Shown here: positions 42,895 to 50,893 of the stretch, piece by piece
Position numbering within the stretch: position 1 is the first letter of the stretch
Layout of the letters: every line of letters begins with the position of its first letter
NCBI RefSeq assembly: GCF_000178995.1
Contig: NZ_ADVZ01000006.1
Location: 1 to 64,000 of the forward strand
Reading direction: 5' to 3'
DNA: 64,000 nucleotides
From: Afipia sp. 1NLS2
Lineage (GTDB): Bacteria; Pseudomonadota; Alphaproteobacteria; Rhizobiales; Xanthobacteraceae
The notes under the pieces: model-generated
The model's input: only the letters and a program-made list of their open reading frames with translations
Told to the model about the DNA's origin: nothing
The model's database searches: none
Program-made: the position numbers and the translations under genes

Positions 42895-43898
42895 AGGACT
42901 TCTGGGTTTCCTGCGGTCATCATCTGCTGGATCGCGAACCGGGCGGTGGGCTCGTCGCGACCGATGAGTTCTTCAAGGCGTATTTTATCCGGCCCGAACT
43001 GATGCCGCCGGCGGATGCCTGTCAGGCCGAGCGACAACTGCATGCGGCGTTGCTGGCGGAACCGCGCCGTCCAGTCGGCGCAGATGAGATTTCCTCAATC
43101 GCTGATCCCGATGCACGGGAAAACTGGCAGTTCGTATTGGCGTTTCGCGAATTGCTGCTGAGTCATCCGACTCTCGAAGCAGCTTATCTGGCTCTGATGC
43201 GCGGCGGGACGGTCGCGTTGCCGCCGCTGTTCGTCAATCAGTTGACTCATGTCATCCTGCGCAATGCGCTCGACGGTTGTGACGATCCATTCGTCTTGCG
43301 AGCCGGCGAGCTGTTCTTCCGGTCTCAGCGCGTCACAGCCAGCCATGGGTCCCTGCTGTCCATGGATGAGGAATGGATCGAAGGCGAAAATCCGGTGCCC
43401 ACGACGCCGCTGTTGGCGTTGCTTGAAATTCCCGAAGAAGCGCAGATCGACATCCTCGGTGAAGAGAACGCCGATAGTTATTGGCGCCGCAGCGACATGT
43501 TCGACATGGGGCTCGATCTCTTCGCAGGAGGGCGGGGCATGGCGGCGGTCGCGGAAGCCATGACGCGCTGGATCGCGCACCTGCTTGCCGTCGAGGTGAT
43601 GATCGAACCGCTCGCCGAACTGCGCGATGCCACGCTGACCTGGTATGTCGGCCTCGATTCCGAAGCGACCGCAATCGGCAACCGGCTCTGGAATGGCGAG
43701 GAACTCGACGATCAGACCACCGGACGGGTAGCAGGCCTTTTCCGCCTGATTTTTTCGGACAAAACTGCCGTCAGCGATGGTCTGGCGAATGAATCGGTCT
43801 ATCTCATCATGGCGACAACGCCGGAGGGGATTTTGCGAATGAAACCGCAAAACCTGATCACGGGGTTGCCGATCAAGCGTATGGAGGTGGCCAGTTGA
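42891..43898 (+). CDS. DUF6352-type accessory protein
   Basis: 335 residues starting MKDFWVSCGHHLLDREPGGG. Mostly helical, with CGHH near the start (C8, H10, H11) as a possible metal site, and the conserved-looking FDMGLDLFAGGRGMAAVAEA and MTRWIAHLLAVEV. No enzymatic domain is recognised. It is coupled by 4-base overlaps in the fdh accessory run. Confidence 0.7.
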   Translation: MKDFWVSCGHHLLDREPGGGLVATDEFFKAYFIRPELMPPADACQAERQLHAALLAEPRRPVGADEISSIADPDARENWQFVLAFRELLLSHPTLEAAYLALMRGGTVALPPLFVNQLTHVILRNALDGCDDPFVLRAGELFFRSQRVTASHGSLLSMDEEWIEGENPVPTTPLLALLEIPEEAQIDILGEENADSYWRRSDMFDMGLDLFAGGRGMAAVAEAMTRWIAHLLAVEVMIEPLAELRDATLTWYVGLDSEATAIGNRLWNGEELDDQTTGRVAGLFRLIFSDKTAVSDGLANESVYLIMATTPEGILRMKPQNLITGLPIKRMEVAS

Positions 43899-44413
43899 GT
43901 CCTGCCGCTGTTCCGTTGCTGAGCATTCCCGTTGGAGTGGTGGTGGAGCGCCGCAAGGCAGCATCCCAATGGGCTGATTTTATCTGGCGCACGGTCGGGG
44001 TATTGCCCGGTGAGCCGGAGATGGAAGCGTGGACGGTGTTGCGTGAACAGGACGATGTCACGCTGTTCTATGTGGGATCTGCCTTGGTCGATCTCTACCG
44101 TTCGGAAACCGAGCGCTATCGCGAAAATCTTGCCTCCGGCGTCCCCAGCATTTGGGTCGTGATGAGCCCATCCGAAGGTGAACGGCCTTATGCAGTCACC
44201 GCCGCTACGGCCGATCCTGCCGAAGGTGAGAGTTTTACGGAAGCGGCAAGCAATCTCGTCGAGCCGGTGCCGATGCCGGAGATTATTCGCGATGCGATTG
44301 CCCGTTTCATTGCCGGGCAACATGTCGAGCGGGAGGAGTTCTTCAAGCGAGAGCGTGGCCGCGCCGATCCCGAGGCGCTTGCGCGACGCCTGCAGAGAGG
44401 GCGGGATGAATGA
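43895..44413 (+). CDS. DUF3305-type formate dehydrogenase accessory protein
   Basis: 172 residues. Conserved segments: IPVGVVVERRKAASQWADFI, WRTVGVLPGEPEMEAWTVL, TLFYVGSALVDLYRSETERY, RENLASGVPSIWVVM. This small-protein family accompanies formate dehydrogenases and DUF3306 proteins in Proteobacteria. It is assumed to help assembly, but the mechanism is unknown. Overlaps the DUF3306 gene by 4 bases. Confidence 0.85.
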   Translation: MSPAAVPLLSIPVGVVVERRKAASQWADFIWRTVGVLPGEPEMEAWTVLREQDDVTLFYVGSALVDLYRSETERYRENLASGVPSIWVVMSPSEGERPYAVTAATADPAEGESFTEAASNLVEPVPMPEIIRDAIARFIAGQHVEREEFFKRERGRADPEALARRLQRGRDE

Positions 44414-45099
44414 GCAATGAGGACTTTCTCAGTCGATGGTCGCGCCGCAAGCGCGTTGCGGAGGCTGCGCCTGAATCCTTGCCTTCCTCGCCGGTGTCCG
44501 GTCCGCCGTCGGCAGGAGAAGATGAAGCGCCTGTTGTGGATTCTGAAGCGGGCAAGTCCGTCAAAGAACCCGACCTTTCGGCGTTGCCGCCGCTGGATAC
44601 GATTACGGCGGCGACTGATGTCACGGCATTCCTGCGCAAGGGGGTTCCACTCGCGCTGACTCGTGAAGCGCTCCGCCGTGCGTGGGCTGCCGATCCTGCA
44701 ATCCGCGATTTCGTCGGGCTTGCCGAGAACGCCTGGGATTTCAACGATCCAAATGTGATGCCGGGATTTGGGTCGCTCGATTACACCCCGGAGCAGGTGC
44801 GTGATTTGGTTGCAAGGATCATCAGGGAGCGGAATCCGGTGGCCGAAGGCGAGGCGACTTCTGCTGCGCCGCAGCTACAACAAAATGTCATCAATCCTGC
44901 CGCTTCGCCGGTGACTTCTTCTGAAGGCGAAACGGCGATCGATACGCCAAAGGCAGCTATCGACCGTATCGAAAGTGACGGGCAAGTAGCGGAAAACGGT
45001 ATTGCAACGCCGCGAGCTGGTTCCATTGCAGTGGATGACGGGCAGGCTCGCCAGTCTTCCCTGGTGCGCCGCACTCATGGGCGCGCGTTGCCGCAATAG
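44410..45099 (+). CDS. DUF3306-type formate dehydrogenase accessory protein
   Basis: 229 residues. The N-terminus (MSNEDFLSRWSRRKRVAEAA) and the central block (LRRAWAADPAIRDFVGLAEN, AWDFNDPNVMPGFGSL) are characteristic of DUF3306. The C-terminal 100 residues are low-complexity, rich in Ala/Glu/Ser, and likely disordered. Last gene of the overlapping accessory run; 120 bases then separate it from the HTH-TorD gene. Confidence 0.85.
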   Translation: MSNEDFLSRWSRRKRVAEAAPESLPSSPVSGPPSAGEDEAPVVDSEAGKSVKEPDLSALPPLDTITAATDVTAFLRKGVPLALTREALRRAWAADPAIRDFVGLAENAWDFNDPNVMPGFGSLDYTPEQVRDLVARIIRERNPVAEGEATSAAPQLQQNVINPAASPVTSSEGETAIDTPKAAIDRIESDGQVAENGIATPRAGSIAVDDGQARQSSLVRRTHGRALPQ

Positions 45100-45222
45100 C
45101 TGCGAAAAGGAACATAGCCTCGACCTATAAGCTTTTTATTGACGGCCGCTGTCTTGCGGGCCTAACTTTGAATCATTCCAAAGTGAAAAGGCGCATATGG
45201 CGCTCACTTGAGGAAAACGAAT

Positions 45223-45999
45223 ATGCGCGATTCTGGATTAGATCGGGCAATTCAAATGGCGGGAGGCGTCGCCGAACTCGCCCGCAGAGTAGGCATACGC
45301 CAACCCTCAGTATCGAACTGGAGCCGGGTCCCCGCCGAGCGCGTGGCCGCGGTTGAAGCCGCAACCGGCGTATCGCGCGTCCATCTTCGTCCCGATCTTT
45401 ATAGTGAGTTAGCCGTGACTGATCAGGTCCACGACATCGATGTGGGCCGTGCCCAGGAATATGCACTGCTCGCTACGCTGTTGTCACAAGCCCCGTCGGC
45501 GAAATTGCTCACGCAGATCGCCAAGCTACGCGGCGACGCGACGCCGCTCGGATTGGCTCACGCGCATCTCGGAGATGCTGCATCGAAGAGCAATGCCGCC
45601 GCTGTCGAGCGCGAGTATTTCGATCTTTTCGTCGGTCTCGGGCGCGGCGAATTGATGCCTTACGCCTCGTTCTATTTAACCGGCTTTCTTAACGAACGCC
45701 CGCTGTCGCGCCTGCGGCGGGATCTGGATGCGCTCGGTATCGAGCGCGTCGAAAATAATTTCGAGCCGGAGGATCACGCGGCGACTCTCTGCGAGATCAT
45801 GGCCGGTTTGGCCGGTGGCCGTTTCCCCGCCCGCGAAGAAGCGCAGCGCGAGATGTTCGAAAAGCACATGGCGCCGTGGATGGGCCGTCTGTTCATCGAC
45901 ATGGAGAACGCAGCGGCGGCGAACTTTTATCGATCGGTCGGCTCGCTTGGCCGGCTCTTTCTTCAGATTGAAGCGGAGGCCTTCACGCTCGCCGATTGA
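45223..45999 (+). CDS. HTH domain fused to a TorD/DmsD-type molybdoenzyme chaperone
   Basis: 258 residues from the ATG at 45223 with GAGGA 7 bases upstream. Residues 5-60 form a Cro/YdaS-like helix-turn-helix: GLDRAIQMAGGVAELARRVG, IRQPSVSNWSRVPAERVAAV, EAATGVSRVHLRPDLY. Residues 75-258 are a TorD-type chaperone: YALLATLLSQAP, EREYFDLFVGLGRGELMPYA, SFYLTGFLNERPLSRLRRDL, ENNFEPEDHAATLCEIMAGL, AREEAQREMFEKHMAPWMGR. The chaperone part should bind the Tat leader of the catalytic subunit or the small Tat-target peptide downstream. The HTH suggests it could also act on DNA, coupling enzyme maturation to transcription (inferred). Confidence 0.88.
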   Translation: MRDSGLDRAIQMAGGVAELARRVGIRQPSVSNWSRVPAERVAAVEAATGVSRVHLRPDLYSELAVTDQVHDIDVGRAQEYALLATLLSQAPSAKLLTQIAKLRGDATPLGLAHAHLGDAASKSNAAAVEREYFDLFVGLGRGELMPYASFYLTGFLNERPLSRLRRDLDALGIERVENNFEPEDHAATLCEIMAGLAGGRFPAREEAQREMFEKHMAPWMGRLFIDMENAAAANFYRSVGSLGRLFLQIEAEAFTLAD

Positions 46000-46033: not shown

Positions 46034-46246
46034 ATGAAAGATAACGACAAGGCAGCCGTCGGCCGTCGTAGCTTTCTGCGCGGAGTCGGTATCGGCGCTC
46101 TCGGCGCCGGAGCGGCCGTCGTATCGCCGCTGATGCCCGAGGCAAAAGCCGATAGCGAGACGAACGATGAGAAGCGCAAAGCGCGCTACAATCCCAATTC
46201 GCCCGACATCCAAGCTTACTACCGCGTGAATCGTTACCCCAAATAG
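46034..46246 (+). CDS. Small Tat-target peptide of the formate dehydrogenase region
   Basis: 70 residues with a twin-arginine motif GRRSFLRGVGIGALGAGAAV and a short mature part ending YNPNSPDIQAYYRVNRYPK. It matches the known 'formate dehydrogenase region TAT target' family. Its role is unclear; it may be a small subunit or an assembly factor cotransported with the enzyme. It lies 34 bases after the HTH-TorD gene and 12 bases before the catalytic subunit gene. Confidence 0.88.
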   Translation: MKDNDKAAVGRRSFLRGVGIGALGAGAAVVSPLMPEAKADSETNDEKRKARYNPNSPDIQAYYRVNRYPK

Positions 46247-46258
46247 CGGGAGGCGGCC

Positions 46259-49210
46259 GTGCTGATCAAAAAAACCCAACGACAGAACTCGCAGGCAATG
46301 CGTCAAGGTTCGGCGGCGGGCGCGCTGGCCGATCGAGGACAAGGTTTGGATCGCCGAACGTTTATGCGCCAGTCCGGTCTGGCTGCGGGTGGCTTGGCTG
46401 TCTTGAACACATTGTCGCCCGGCAGTGTCCGCAAGGCCGAGGCGGCGATGGCGGGTCCGCTGACTTCGGGTGCAACCGTTCGCAAGAGCATATGTACCCA
46501 CTGCGCCGTCGGCTGCACCGTGACTGCCGAAGTCTTGAATGGCGTGTGGATCGGTCAGGAGCCGAGCTGGGATTCTCCGATCAATCGCGGTTCGCATTGC
46601 GCCAAGGGCGCCTCCGTCCGTGAACTGGTCCACAGCGATCGTCGCCTTCGTTATCCGATGAAGCTCGTCAACGGGCAGTGGACGCGTACGTCGTGGGACA
46701 CCGCGATCAACGAGATTGGCGACAAATTATTGCAGATCCGTGAGAAGTCGGGCTCGGATTCGGTGTACTGGCTGGGCTCGGCCAAGATGACCAACGAAGG
46801 TTCGTATCTATTCCGCAAGCTCGGCGCCTATTGGGGCACCAACAATACCGACCATCAGGCGCGTATTTGCCATTCGACGACCGTGACCGGCGTAGCCAAC
46901 ACCTGGGGTTACGGCGCGATGACGAACAACCTCAATGATATGCGGAATGCCAAGACGCTGGTCTATATCGGCAGCAACGCCGCCGAGGCGCATCCGGTCG
47001 GCATGCAGCACATGCTCGAATCGAAGGAGCTGAACAAGGGTAACTTTATCGTTTTCGATCCGCGCATGACCCGTACCGCGGCGCACGCGACCGAATATGC
47101 GCGGATTCGTCCCGGCACCGACATTCCGGTGCTGTACGGAATGATGTGGCACATTCTGAAGAATGGATGGGAAGACAAGGAGTTTATCAGGCAGCGGGTT
47201 TATGGCTTCGACGATCTCCGCAAGGAGGTTGAGAAATGGAATCCCGAAGAAACCGAACGGGTCACGGGCGTTCCTGGCGCACAGATGGAGCGCATCGCCA
47301 AGATGTTCGCCACGGAAAAGCCGGCGACGCTGATCTGGTGCATGGGCCAGACGCAGCATTCGGTCGGCACCGCCAACGTGCGCGCGAGCTGCATCGCCTT
47401 GCTGATGACGGGTAATATCGGCAAGTCGGGCACCGGTGCCAACATTCTGCGCGGCCACGACAACGTTCAGGGCGCAACTGACGTTGGTCTCGATATCGTG
47501 ACGCTGCCGTTCTACTACGGTCTCGCCGAAGGCGCGTGGAAGCACTGGGCCCGGGTCTGGGAGACCGACTTCGAATGGTTCAAGTCGCGCTTCGACGATC
47601 CGAAGATGATGAACACTCCCGGTATTCCGCTGACGCGCTGGTTCGACGGCGTGAACCTGCCCAAGAACGACGTGGCCCAGAAGGACAATATCCGGGCGAT
47701 GTTCGTGCAGGGACATGCCAGCAACAGCATCACCCGTATCCCGGAATCGATGAAGGGGCTGAAAGCCCTTGAGCTTCTGGTCATTGCAGATCCGCATCCC
47801 ACCACCTGGGCCTCGCTCTCGGTGAAGGCAGGCCGCAACAACGACACGTATGTGCTGCCGGTCGCGACACAGTTTGAGTGCAAGGGCTCGCGCGTCGCCA
47901 CGGGACGCCAGTTGCAGTGGGGCGAGCAGATCGTGAAACCGATTTTCGAGTCGAAAGACGATCTCGAAGTCATGTACCTGACCGCCAAGAAGCTCGGCTT
48001 CGCCGACAAGATGTTCAAGAACATCAAGATCGAGAACGGCGTGCCTTCGGCGGAAGATATCCTGCGCGAAATCAACCGCGGCAGCTGGTCGACTGGCTAT
48101 TGCGGCCAATCTCCCGAGCGGCTTAAGGCGCATATGAAGAACCAGGCAAAGTTCGATCTGGTGACCACGCGGGCGCCAAAGGACGATCCTGAAGTCGGAG
48201 GCGATTACTACGGATTGCCATGGCCGTGCTGGGGATCTCCCGAAGTGCGACATCCCGGAACGCCGCTCCTGTACAATACTCACCTCGGGGTCATGGACGG
48301 TGGCGGCACCTTCCGCCCGCGGTTCGGCCTTGAGCGTGAAGAGAAGTTGCCGGACGGCACGACCCGCAAAGTCAGCCTGCTGGCGGATGGCTCCTATTCG
48401 AAGGACTCCGAAATCAAGGACGGCTATCCGGAGTTCACGCTGGCGAGCCTCAAGAAGCTTGGCTGGGACACCGATTTGACGGAAGCTGAGATGGCCGTCA
48501 TCAACAAGGTCAATCCGGCCAGTCCGGATACGGTGTCGTGGTCGACCGATCTGTCGGGCGGCATCCAGCGCGTCGCGATGAAACATGGCTGCGTGCCTTA
48601 CGGCAACGGCAAGGCGCGCATGAACGCATGGAGTTTGCCGGACCCGATCCCGGTGCACCGCGAGCCCATCTACACGCCTCGCGTCGAACTGGTGTCGAAA
48701 TATCCGACGCTGCCCGATGCCAAGCAGTTCCGTCTGCCCAACATCGGCTTCTCTGTTCAGAAGGCGGCGGTGGAGAAGGGCATTGCCAAGCAATTCCCGC
48801 TCATCCTGTCGTCCGGCCGGCTCGTCGAATATGAGGGCGGCGGCGAGGAAACGCGAACCAATCCATGGCTCGCCGAACTGCAGCAGGACATGTTCATCGA
48901 AATCAGCACAGCGGATGCGGCCGATCGCGGCATCAAGGATGGCGGCTGGGTCTGGGTGACCGGCGCGGAAAACGGGTCGAAAGCCCGGATGAAGGCGCTT
49001 GTGACCGAGCGGGTCGGCAAAGGCGTTGCCTGGATGCCGTTCCATTTTGGTGGCTGGTTCGAGGGCAACGATCTGCGCGGCAACTATCCGAAGGGCACCG
49101 ACCCGATCGTGCTCGGCGAAAGCGCCAATACGATCACGACCTACGGATACGACCCCGCGACCGGCATGCAGGAACCAAAGGTCACTCTTTGTCAGATTGT
49201 CGCGGCATAA
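46259..49210 (+). CDS. fdhA: Formate dehydrogenase catalytic subunit (Mo/W-bisMGD, Fe-S), Tat-exported
   Basis: 983 residues from a GTG with GGGAGG upstream. The Tat motif is RRTFMR (residues 32-37). A 4Fe-4S site is C79-x2-C82-x3-C86-x27-C114. The metal-ligating residue is Cys (C204 in QARICHSTTV), followed by H205, so no selenocysteine is used. The C-terminal molybdopterin dinucleotide domain is present (LILSSGRLVEYEGGGEETRT, then AWMPFHFGGWFEGNDL). It oxidises formate in the periplasm and passes electrons to the ferredoxin subunit downstream. The fdhB gene follows after 12 bases. Confidence 0.95.
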   Translation: MLIKKTQRQNSQAMRQGSAAGALADRGQGLDRRTFMRQSGLAAGGLAVLNTLSPGSVRKAEAAMAGPLTSGATVRKSICTHCAVGCTVTAEVLNGVWIGQEPSWDSPINRGSHCAKGASVRELVHSDRRLRYPMKLVNGQWTRTSWDTAINEIGDKLLQIREKSGSDSVYWLGSAKMTNEGSYLFRKLGAYWGTNNTDHQARICHSTTVTGVANTWGYGAMTNNLNDMRNAKTLVYIGSNAAEAHPVGMQHMLESKELNKGNFIVFDPRMTRTAAHATEYARIRPGTDIPVLYGMMWHILKNGWEDKEFIRQRVYGFDDLRKEVEKWNPEETERVTGVPGAQMERIAKMFATEKPATLIWCMGQTQHSVGTANVRASCIALLMTGNIGKSGTGANILRGHDNVQGATDVGLDIVTLPFYYGLAEGAWKHWARVWETDFEWFKSRFDDPKMMNTPGIPLTRWFDGVNLPKNDVAQKDNIRAMFVQGHASNSITRIPESMKGLKALELLVIADPHPTTWASLSVKAGRNNDTYVLPVATQFECKGSRVATGRQLQWGEQIVKPIFESKDDLEVMYLTAKKLGFADKMFKNIKIENGVPSAEDILREINRGSWSTGYCGQSPERLKAHMKNQAKFDLVTTRAPKDDPEVGGDYYGLPWPCWGSPEVRHPGTPLLYNTHLGVMDGGGTFRPRFGLEREEKLPDGTTRKVSLLADGSYSKDSEIKDGYPEFTLASLKKLGWDTDLTEAEMAVINKVNPASPDTVSWSTDLSGGIQRVAMKHGCVPYGNGKARMNAWSLPDPIPVHREPIYTPRVELVSKYPTLPDAKQFRLPNIGFSVQKAAVEKGIAKQFPLILSSGRLVEYEGGGEETRTNPWLAELQQDMFIEISTADAADRGIKDGGWVWVTGAENGSKARMKALVTERVGKGVAWMPFHFGGWFEGNDLRGNYPKGTDPIVLGESANTITTYGYDPATGMQEPKVTLCQIVAA

Positions 49211-49222
49211 GGAGCAGCAGTC

Positions 49223-49819
49223 ATGGCCCGGATGAAATTTCTCTGTGACGCGGATCGCTGCATCGAGTGCAATGCCTGCGTCACGGCCTGCAAGAACGAG
49301 CACGAGGTGCCGTGGGGCATCAATCGCCGCCGCGTGGTGACCATCAACGACGGCAAGCCTGGAGAGCGGTCGATTTCGATGGCGTGCATGCATTGCACGG
49401 ATGCGCCGTGTGCGGCTGTCTGCCCCGTCAATTGCTTCTACACCACAGCCGATGCCGTTGTGCTGCACTCCAAGGATCTCTGCATCGGCTGCGGCTATTG
49501 CTTCTATGCGTGTCCGTTCGGCGCGCCGCAGTATCCGAAGCTCGGAAACTTCGGGTCGCGCGGCAAAATGGACAAGTGCACGTTCTGTGCCGGTGGTCCC
49601 GAAGCCGACGGCAGCAAGGAAGAATACGAGAAGTATGGCGCCAATCGCCTTGCCGAAGGCAAGCTACCGTTATGTGCCGAGATGTGTTCGACCAAATCGC
49701 TTCTGGCGGGCGATGGCGAGATCATCGCCCAGATCTACAAGGAAAGGGTGACCAAGCGAGGATACGGCTCGGGCGCGTGGGGCTGGCAGACAGCCTATCG
49801 GGGGACCATTGCCTCGTAA
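49223..49819 (+). CDS. fdhB: Formate dehydrogenase iron-sulfur subunit (FDH3 beta type)
   Basis: 198 residues with several 4Fe-4S sites: CIECNACVTACKNEHEVPWG, CMHCTDAPCAAVCPVNCFY, CIGCGYCFYACPFGAPQYP, and CTFCAGG with CAEMCSTK. This is the four-cluster ferredoxin subunit that links the catalytic subunit to the cytochrome b. No signal peptide is visible, so it would be carried across with the Tat-exported catalytic subunit. The next gene begins about 60 bases later. Confidence 0.94.
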   Translation: MARMKFLCDADRCIECNACVTACKNEHEVPWGINRRRVVTINDGKPGERSISMACMHCTDAPCAAVCPVNCFYTTADAVVLHSKDLCIGCGYCFYACPFGAPQYPKLGNFGSRGKMDKCTFCAGGPEADGSKEEYEKYGANRLAEGKLPLCAEMCSTKSLLAGDGEIIAQIYKERVTKRGYGSGAWGWQTAYRGTIAS

Positions 49820-49879: not shown

Positions 49880-50893
49880 ATGGCGTCTTTTGCAAGGTAT
49901 CTCCGTTTCGTGGCTGGCGTCGCCATTTTCTTCCTTATGATCGCCTCGTCCGTTCCGGCAGCCGCCCAGCAGCCGTCACGGGTCGATCCGACTGCCAGTG
50001 CGGTCCACGAGCAGCAATTGTTGAAGGAATTGGACCGCATCCAGGGACGTGTCAGCATCCCGGACAGGCGATCCGGCGTTCTTGAGCAGCCGGCTGGCCG
50101 TGATTGGCGATACTTCCATAGCGTGACGCTGCGCTGGATCGGCGGAATCGCGATCCTTGGAATGCTTGCCGTTCTCGTCATTTTCTATCTGATGCGTGGC
50201 ATGGTCCGTATCGAAGGCGGGCGCTCAGGGCGCACCATTGTTCGCTTTTCCGGATTCGAGCGGTTCGTGCACTGGATGACCGCGACCTGCTTTATCATTC
50301 TGGCCATCTCGGGCCTGAACATCACTTTCGGCCGGCCGCTGCTGCTGCCGGTGATCGGACACGAAGCCTTCTCGGCTTGGTCGCAGTGGGCGAAGTACGC
50401 GCACAATTATCTGAGCTTTCCCTTCACTATCGGCGTCATTCTGATTTTCCTGATGTGGATTGGCGGCAATATCCCCAACAAGGTTGATGCCGAGTGGTTG
50501 AAGGAAGGCGGTGGCATCGTTGGCCACTCCCATCCGCCGGCCTATCGGTTCAACGCCGGGCAGAAAGCAATTTACTGGATCGTCGTGCTCGGGGGCGGCG
50601 CGGTTGCCGTGACCGGCTATCAGTTGATGTTCCCATTTTATGTCACGGGCATCGAAGGCATGCAGCTCGCGCAGATCGTTCACGCGGTCGTGGGTGTGCT
50701 GTTTGTCGCCGTCATGTTGGCACATATCTATATTGGCACCATCGGAATGGAGGGTGCATTCGAAGCCATGGGCGAGGGAACAGTCGACCTGAACTGGGCG
50801 AAGGAGCACCACAGCCTATGGCTCGAAGAGGAGAGTGCGCGAAGAGGCGTTAATACAGCGCACCATCATCCGTCATCAACACCGGCGGAGTAA
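49880..50893 (+). CDS. fdhC: Formate dehydrogenase cytochrome b556 (gamma) subunit
   Basis: 337 residues. A hydrophobic N-terminal segment (about residues 8-30, ending PAAAQQP) may be a signal, followed by a periplasmic region and membrane helices near 92-112, 135-152, 175-195, 232-252 and 268-290. Haem histidines appear in FERFVHWMTA, KYAHNYLSF, IVHAVVGVLF and LAHIYIGTIG. It anchors the enzyme and delivers electrons to quinone. The C-terminal tail is rich in Glu and His. Confidence 0.93.
   Translation: MASFARYLRFVAGVAIFFLMIASSVPAAAQQPSRVDPTASAVHEQQLLKELDRIQGRVSIPDRRSGVLEQPAGRDWRYFHSVTLRWIGGIAILGMLAVLVIFYLMRGMVRIEGGRSGRTIVRFSGFERFVHWMTATCFIILAISGLNITFGRPLLLPVIGHEAFSAWSQWAKYAHNYLSFPFTIGVILIFLMWIGGNIPNKVDAEWLKEGGGIVGHSHPPAYRFNAGQKAIYWIVVLGGGAVAVTGYQLMFPFYVTGIEGMQLAQIVHAVVGVLFVAVMLAHIYIGTIGMEGAFEAMGEGTVDLNWAKEHHSLWLEEESARRGVNTAHHHPSSTPAE

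Follow-up and report, generated by a model that had tools for sequence, protein, structure and literature searches.

Bifunctional trigger enzymes such as PutA, BirA, and NadR combine a metabolic job with a DNA-binding head in one protein. Two further protein families lie closest to the gene described here: the molybdoenzyme chaperones of the TorD/DmsD/YcdY/NarJ type (PF02613), for which we take E-P-x-D-H to be the signature motif of the TorD/NarJ-type family, and the Cro-like proteins typified by YdaS of CP-933P, which belongs to the family that gives the Pfam model PF15943 its name. For NarJ, the title of structure 8jzd states that the same chaperone fold binds a signal peptide. The excerpted text of PMC8630535 describes YdaS of CP-933P as a Cro-like protein that binds and represses its own promoter, with a footprint covering the promoter, and argues that it is a Cro analogue and not a toxin. 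In E. coli, immature (apo-)TorC is described to lower torCAD expression through the sensor kinase TorS (PMC10845959, excerpt).

In Afipia sp. 1NLS2, the two families meet in a single gene, hth-torD. The following features were assigned in the window, i.e., the whole stretch of 64,000 nucleotides that was analysed:

43895..44413, forward strand: DUF3305 protein, upstream neighbour (Pfam)
44410..45099, forward strand: DUF3306 protein, upstream neighbour (Pfam)
45114..45128, no strand assigned: operator-like palindrome ATAGCCTCGACCTAT (ATAG-N7-CTAT), centre 101.5 nt 5' of the start codon
45139..45144, forward strand: candidate -35 element TTGACG (sigma70 matrix scan; not listed by a stricter scan)
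45163..45168, forward strand: candidate -10 element TAACTT, spacer 18 (sigma70 matrix scan; weak by consensus)
45223..45999, forward strand: hth-torD, Cro/YdaS-type helix-turn-helix (HTH) joined to a TorD/DmsD/YcdY-type molybdoenzyme chaperone, 258 aa
45238..45408, forward strand: HTH domain coding region, residues 6-62 (Pfam PF15943; 3bd1 Cro by sequence and fold)
45301..45327, forward strand: putative recognition-helix segment, residues 27-35, QPSVSNWSR (alignment; association with the operator)
45307-45309, forward strand: codon of residue 29 (Ser), the position co-varying with an operator base
45430..45996, forward strand: chaperone domain coding region, residues 70-258, with EPEDH at 181-185 (Pfam, alignment, fold)
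46034..46246, forward strand: fdhX, small formate dehydrogenase region TAT-target protein (NCBIfam TIGR02811, 56.3 bits, cut-off 48.45)
46259..49210, forward strand: fdhA, molybdopterin formate dehydrogenase alpha subunit with an RR leader (RRTFMRQ), the presumed client (profile matches)
49223..49819, forward strand: fdhB, 4Fe-4S subunit (Pfam)
49880..50893, forward strand: fdhC, cytochrome b (gamma) subunit (TIGR01583)

Comparison of this locus with its relatives makes it highly probable that HTH-TorD, besides being a chaperone, acts locally as a transcription factor on the torD-fdhXABC promoter of its own operon, most probably by repression.

The gene is a single open frame on the forward strand (45223-45999) with an ATG start; a TTG five codons further 5' also lies in the open frame, and the ATG is the start conserved among relatives, with MR(D/E) as the conserved N-terminus across orthologues. 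The original prediction, which had read an uninterrupted joining of a Cro/YdaS-like HTH to a TorD/DmsD-type chaperone from this frame, is borne out by Pfam, by fold matches, and by 185 orthologues. Both halves exceed the Pfam gathering cut-offs, i.e., YdaS_toxin (PF15943) over residues 6-62 (E 7.5e-15; 54.9 bits, cut-off 30) and Nitrate_red_del (PF02613, the TorD/NarJ family) over residues 105-223 (E 1.1e-29; 103.7 bits, cut-off 22.2). Scores for P22 Cro (PF14549, 26.4 bits) and the carph-isopro domain (NF046037, 25.9) stay under the gathering cut-off of 30.2 and the curated cut-off of 38, respectively, and those for the NCBIfam equivalogs of TorD/DmsD sensu stricto are far under theirs (NF003442, 43 vs 132; NF008632, 34.7 vs 162).

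A model of residues 1-66 built from a 61-sequence alignment (pLDDT 88.8) predicts a Cro-type HTH whose residues 27-31 are helical in the HTH position, in agreement with the earlier expectation for residues 1-70. The nearest solved fold is Xfaso 1 Cro (3bd1; Z 9.7, rmsd 1.6 over 59 residues, 44% identity), which is also the nearest solved chain by sequence (E 2e-7), and YdaS (8co2) is among the Foldseek matches (E 0.26). The enzymes HppE and HEPD appear in the list of fold matches as well, and because an HTH-like fold thus also occurs in enzymes, the fold by itself does not prove DNA binding. In the full-length AlphaFold2 model (32 sequences; pLDDT 83.5, pTM 0.69), residues 3-62 match Xfaso 1 Cro (Z 7.6), and the all-helical REMP fold of the chaperone half matches YcdY 9m26 over residues 72-258 (Z 19.7, rmsd 2.6 over 173), DmsD 3efp over residues 68-257 (Z 18.0, rmsd 3.3 over 184), and NarJ over about residues 70-258. 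Residues 24-32 have no helix assignment in this full-length model, and the recognition helix is seen only in the HTH-only model with its deeper alignment. Within EPEDH (residues 181-185), P182, E183, D184, and H185 are invariant in the 32 sequences and E181 is nearly so.

The fusion is real and represents a conserved architecture in Alphaproteobacteria, no local accident. Matches were found in 33 of 61 relatives' genomes (own genome included), at least 21 of the matches listed spanning residue 1-2 to 255-258. A scan of named genomes gave 93 places encoding a relative, of which 80 were kept, and 85 of the 110 loci then compared begin at query residue 1-2; these belong to Bradyrhizobium, Nitrobacter, Afipia, Microvirga, Rhodoblastus, and others. 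A draw of genomes from the order gave matches in 166 of 397, with at least 38 full-length among the matches listed. An even draw over the class gave matches in 61 of 385 genomes; these include seven full-length fusions like that of the window and three whose HTH is divergent, and the rest consist mainly of the chaperone part or of a short HTH by itself. A draw over the phylum gave matches in 77 of 398 genomes, and among those listed for other classes of the same phylum there is no full-length fusion. In total, 185 non-redundant fused orthologues carry S, T, or A at residue 29 (type-A fusions), and inside their clade the N-terminal domain is not lost from most orthologues, a loss that would have told against the original prediction. 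Over 85 fusions (not thinned for relatedness), mean column entropy is lower in the HTH (0.74 bits) than in the chaperone (0.93) and the linker (1.99), and each of Q27, P28, S29, S31, and W33 is present in 84 of these 85 (likewise unthinned). In the plasmid records, the three full-length fused matches bear no other name than 'molecular chaperone TorD family protein', so that these annotations overlook the regulatory half.

Some related frames deserve mention. In two Bradyrhizobium fdh loci (L094 and L096; L224 is probably the same locus as L096), DUF3306 and TorD apparently share a single frame that replaces HTH-TorD, and no perfect ATAG-N7-CTAT was found upstream of either L094 or L096. A 496-aa frame (L149, G379:C2:115800-119800) joins a YdaS-type HTH to an enzyme that we take, from its sequence, to be MurA-like, a possible HTH-enzyme fusion. 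A 588-aa frame (L148, G076:C86:34200-37500) joins a YdaS-type HTH to a presumed NAD(P)HX epimerase/dehydratase-like part, this label likewise being a reading of the sequence; a Met codon between the two parts means that they may be two overlapping genes. In L354 and L355 (G626, G604), a YdaS-type HTH is followed in the same frame by about 160-170 uncharacterised residues.

The neighbourhood of hth-torD is that of a formate dehydrogenase operon, outside any phage or prophage immunity region. On the 5' side lie a biotin/lipoate-ligase-like gene and genes for DUF6505, DUF6352, DUF3305, and DUF3306 proteins, and on the 3' side fdhX is followed by fdhA, fdhB, and fdhC, which places hth-torD between DUF3306 and fdhX-fdhA. 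A search for other HTH-TorD fusions and their operon contexts, as proposed with the original prediction, found the fusion to be widespread, with FdhA downstream in all 144 fused loci that have at least 900 nt there. Under the same requirement FdhA follows in 42 of 44 unfused loci; because unfused loci have FdhA downstream about as often, the fdh operon works elsewhere without the HTH. DUF3305/DUF3306 lie upstream of torD in 160 of 162 fused loci (those with at least 700 nt) and in 55 of 86 unfused ones, a constancy that suggests a role in maturation. From the DUF3306 stop (45099) to the hth-torD start (45223), the gap of 123 nt (45100-45222) is the largest between DUF3305 and fdhA. This gap had been proposed, at 120 bases, as a natural place for an operator, and it does hold an operator-like palindrome, which in comparisons between loci co-varies with the HTH and with residue 29.

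The palindrome at 45114-45128 is the sole copy of ATAG-N7-CTAT in the 64 kb, where 0.13 are expected and 13 of 100 shuffles contain one. It is an inverted repeat that was noticed, on reading the 200 nt upstream of 85 fusion genes, as common to them, and in a first count it was the best hit, perfect and with spacer 7, in 80 of these 85 fusions vs 0 of 25 other loci. The motif was then kept fixed while further loci were fetched. The final table holds 285 non-redundant loci of 300, 15 having been dropped because their last 150 chaperone residues are identical to another's; near relatives remain among them. Here, ATAG-N7-CTAT lies within 250 nt upstream in 152 of 155 fusions with S or T at residue 29 (S/T29), and within 450 nt in one of 89 loci classed as unfused, namely, L298, in which the HTH is readable in another frame upstream of the chaperone frame and which is still counted as unfused. 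Among the other unfused loci, one has the ATAA form 244 nt away and two have hybrids. When only loci obtained once the respective motif had been named are counted, ATAG-N7-CTAT occurs in 71 of 72 S/T29 fusions and ATAA-N7-TTAT in 23 of 26 fusions with Ala at this position (A29).

As an unbiased control, meant to guard against a motif chosen by eye, all 256 four-base arms with spacers of 2-12, i.e., 2816 inverted repeats, were counted. ATAG with spacer 7 ranks first in the S/T29 fusions (152/155; the runner-up, with 51, is nested in the same palindrome), and ATAA with spacer 7 ranks first in the A29 fusions (27/30; runner-up 20, again nested in the same palindrome). In the unfused loci, the best of all repeats reaches 8 of 89. 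The chance rates per 250 nt under an order-1 Markov model are 0.0012 for ATAG-N7-CTAT and 0.0016 for ATAA-N7-TTAT. This comparative evidence indicates a putative inverted-repeat operator upstream of the protein's own gene, as is typical of YdaS/Cro-type regulators. Two side observations concern the same region. Upstream of L009, L011, L018, and L020, a second palindrome around AGAACTAGAACAGTTCTA lies a few bases 3' of ATAG-N7-CTAT, with weaker versions in neighbours. In L213 (G701), an unfused torD nested among fusions has a hybrid ATAG-N7-TTAT about 90 nt upstream, possibly an operator decaying after loss of the HTH.

The type of palindrome follows the recognition helix. The A29 fusions comprise 27 of 30 with ATAA-N7-TTAT, two with hybrids (L246, L309), and one with ATAG (L249), so that A vs S/T at residue 29 goes with one symmetric base change per half-site (ATAG to ATAA). 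In ten fusions whose helices are of other kinds, and in L087, both the ATAG and the ATAA palindrome are missing. The helices of these ten are KQANVWHW (eight loci of one family), KSQGHVWHW (L125, of another family), and yet another in L102. Seven of the ten carry ACAAA-N4-TTTGT with its centre 28-43 nt before the start, compared with 0 of 185 type-A fusions and 0 of 89 unfused loci; this repeat was found by enumeration without hold-outs, and its carriers are mostly close relatives in one family. Of the other three, L278 and L279 show ACAA-N6-TAGT, and all three motifs are absent from L102. The S/T29 exceptions are L037, with a normal HTH and no intact palindrome, L090, with a hybrid, and L287, with ATAA and a degenerate HTH (S29). 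Degenerate HTHs differ in this respect: L087 is without a palindrome, whereas one persists in L287 and in L082, the latter having ATAG and lacking the conserved Trp of the helix region. A stand-alone HTH paralogue (L356, G690) has no ATAG or ATAA palindrome in its 2288-nt locus. We take the pattern of helices and palindromes as the strongest evidence, of a comparative kind, that the HTH of HTH-TorD, and not another regulator, reads the palindrome. Correlations between Cro helices and operators have reportedly been published; a search for literature on Cro recognition in open-licence PubMed Central yielded no direct precedent for the recognition proposed here.

The association is strong in counts and rests on few independent events. 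Trees of 94, 103, and 101 rows were used; alignment A1 comprises 32 of the loci and A2 61. In the chaperone-domain tree of 103 rows, the type-A fusions lie in one region with a support of 93, L102 included, and unfused lineages without either palindrome are nested in this region; the type-A state needs eight changes and the palindrome nine. A clade of type-A fusions alone is rejected (AU p 0.006, on a quick tree and with the group chosen after the tree was seen), and therefore the HTH was lost, or gained, repeatedly. On the 101-row tree, residue 29 needs seven changes and the operator base four. Sign tests of fusion against palindrome and of residue 29 against palindrome were not significant, because only one to three pairs (2, 1, and 3) fall on well supported branches; over all branches the independent pairs number 5, 7, and 6. 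TorD proteins outside the clade and several lineages nested within it have no HTH. Most simply, HTH and palindrome would have been gained once and lost together several times. Because the two adjoin, one deletion could remove both without any functional linkage; such a deletion does not explain the association between helix and operator.

Promoters were located with a simple sigma70 matrix; their positions are consensus guesses, and an arm of the palindrome can mimic a -10 box. Set against the best promoter of each locus, 75 of the 181 palindromes are wholly upstream of -35, 74 are on -10, and 12 on -35; in the remaining loci the palindrome falls in the spacer (6) or downstream (7), or the promoters are weak (7). 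Two peaks stand out. The -60 to -50 bin has 64 loci, among them the window (-53.5) and the majority of the Bradyrhizobium loci listed, and the -20 to -10 bin has 68, including many other lineages and a subgroup of the window's genus (e.g., L010 at -16.5). In the window and its close relatives, the palindrome is thus just upstream of the predicted -35; the window's promoter is absent from the stricter consensus scan. The -20 to -10 peak suits repression, and the -60 to -50 peak allows either sign.

Further sites in the genomes were also considered. Perfect ATAG-N7-CTAT sites vs sites of a reversed control pattern number 8 vs 24 in the own genome (G000), 17 vs 31 in G012, and 7 vs 26 in G004; because the own genome has fewer sites than the control pattern gives, control looks local. 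Two intergenic sites in G000, L117 beside an apparent LysR-type gene and L118 beside genes without an evident formate link, recur in G012 as the same 15-mers, and no link to formate was found at either. A candidate second target inside a gene of G004 (L176, ATAGCTTCAGGCTAT, PWM 25.6), which we read from its sequence as fdsG-like, was rejected as a link to another formate dehydrogenase, the palindrome being present in G004 alone among 19 sequences (G004 and 18 relatives, 49-61% identical). We take it to be a coincidence of conserved codons. Control by HTH-TorD is probably local, and a wider regulon is unsupported.

It is proposed that the Cro/YdaS-type head, presumably dimeric, would bind ATAG-N7-CTAT at 45114-45128, and that the bound protein would control the promoter for hth-torD, fdhX, fdhA, fdhB, and fdhC. 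Autorepression would be the most likely mode because 74 of 181 loci have the palindrome on their predicted -10; by analogy with YdaS of CP-933P, too, HTH-TorD should repress its own operon. DNA binding, dimer formation, and the sign of regulation are inferred here. The natural input would be the degree to which FdhA occupies the chaperone domain: the unloaded chaperone would repress, and with its client bound it would release the DNA, or the reverse. Such coupling would match enzyme synthesis to maturation capacity. That HTH-TorD reads apo-FdhA is plausible, as is a coupling of client binding to DNA binding, because the chaperone half keeps EPEDH and the fold that binds a signal peptide in NarJ. 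In this tentative extension, to which we give slightly less than an even chance, HTH-TorD would be a one-component regulator with a folding protein as its ligand, the loading with immature, cofactor-free, or unexported FdhA switching operator binding. If true, the assembly line of a Tat-exported molybdoenzyme would, by its state, directly determine the transcription of this enzyme, and a chaperone lineage would have taken over a Cro head of phage type and maintained its fit to a corresponding operator. The original prediction, that the fusion senses unexported or cofactor-free FdhA and feeds back on the fdh genes, is thereby upheld in part: the predicted HTH, the N-terminal domain kept in a large clade, and the operator-like palindrome speak for its DNA-binding side, and its sensing step keeps the tentative standing just given.

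Other readings differ in what they make of the two halves. A quite possible one is that the HTH binds the operator in plain autoregulation, in which the chaperone half gives no signal and the fusion only ties the dose of the regulator to the output of the operon. The operator evidence says nothing on the chaperone half, and unfused chaperones nested among fusions indicate that the two functions are separable; against this it can be argued that the fusion is kept over a wide clade with both domains conserved, where separate genes would do. Activation in the window and its close relatives is unlikely, with the operator centre about 50 to 54 nt before the predicted transcription start, next to the -35 box and somewhat like an activator site of the CI type. 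It would agree with the 75 of 181 loci in which the palindrome is wholly upstream of -35, with the 64 scored loci in the -60 to -50 bin, and with the positions of the palindrome (45114-45128) and TTGACG (45139-45144) in the window. However, the 74 of 181 loci with the palindrome on -10, among them the subgroup of the window's own genus (L010, -16.5), suit repression. Additional assumptions would have to be made for a switch of sign inside one family, and a protein bound just upstream of -35 may also repress.

It is very improbable that ATAG-N7-CTAT is the site of another fdh regulator, with the HTH merely structural and not binding DNA. The occurrence of the same fold in HppE and HEPD gives this view some ground, but the palindrome accompanies the HTH and is nearly absent without it, distinct helix types go with distinct palindromes, and the recognition-helix residues are among the most conserved. 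For a one-genome accident, be it a frameshift, a read-through, or an artefact of annotation, it can be said that TorD partners do vary, e.g., in the apparent DUF3306-TorD frames of L094 and L096, but the 185 non-redundant fused orthologues and the conserved start MR(D/E) refute it, and its probability is negligible.

The locus bears on the question of how cells adjust the making of complex metalloenzymes to the supply of cofactors and to Tat export; here a chaperone appears to be a transcription factor with a short, defined site. The natural pairs of altered helix and altered operator are ready-made specificity variants. There is demand for formate dehydrogenases in CO2 conversion, and the title of PMC13396061 names their maturation as a bottleneck when they are produced heterologously. 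On the sequence evidence, the cell probably controls the making of its formate dehydrogenase through the protein that tends its assembly.

Both halves of HTH-TorD come from known families, and searches of open-licence PubMed Central yielded no paper on the fusion or on its combination with an operator that follows the helix. As in the TorD/DmsD/YcdY/NarJ chaperones (PF02613), whose fold is shared by residues 70-258, the gene lies beside a presumed molybdoenzyme client; unlike in these, there is an additional N-terminal Cro-type HTH with a matching palindrome, and the protein falls far under the NCBIfam cut-offs of the TorD and DmsD equivalogs. With the YdaS/Xfaso 1 Cro repressors (PF15943, 3bd1, 8co2), residues 3-62 share fold and sequence, and the gene shares an inverted repeat upstream; HTH-TorD differs from them in lying outside a prophage immunity region, in being fused to a chaperone, and in its linkage to formate dehydrogenase genes. 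Feedback from the state of assembly has a precedent by another route, because immature TorC, as a component of a molybdoenzyme system, acts back on its own torCAD operon; there, in contrast, the feedback runs through TorS, and TorD is not a DNA-binding protein in the account excerpted from PMC10845959. We file HTH-TorD as an autoregulatory bifunctional protein with molybdoenzyme chaperoning as its second job. Like PutA, BirA, and NadR, it combines a second job with a DNA-binding head, but this job is the chaperoning of a client, and the quantity sensed would be the folding state of a protein instead of a metabolite.
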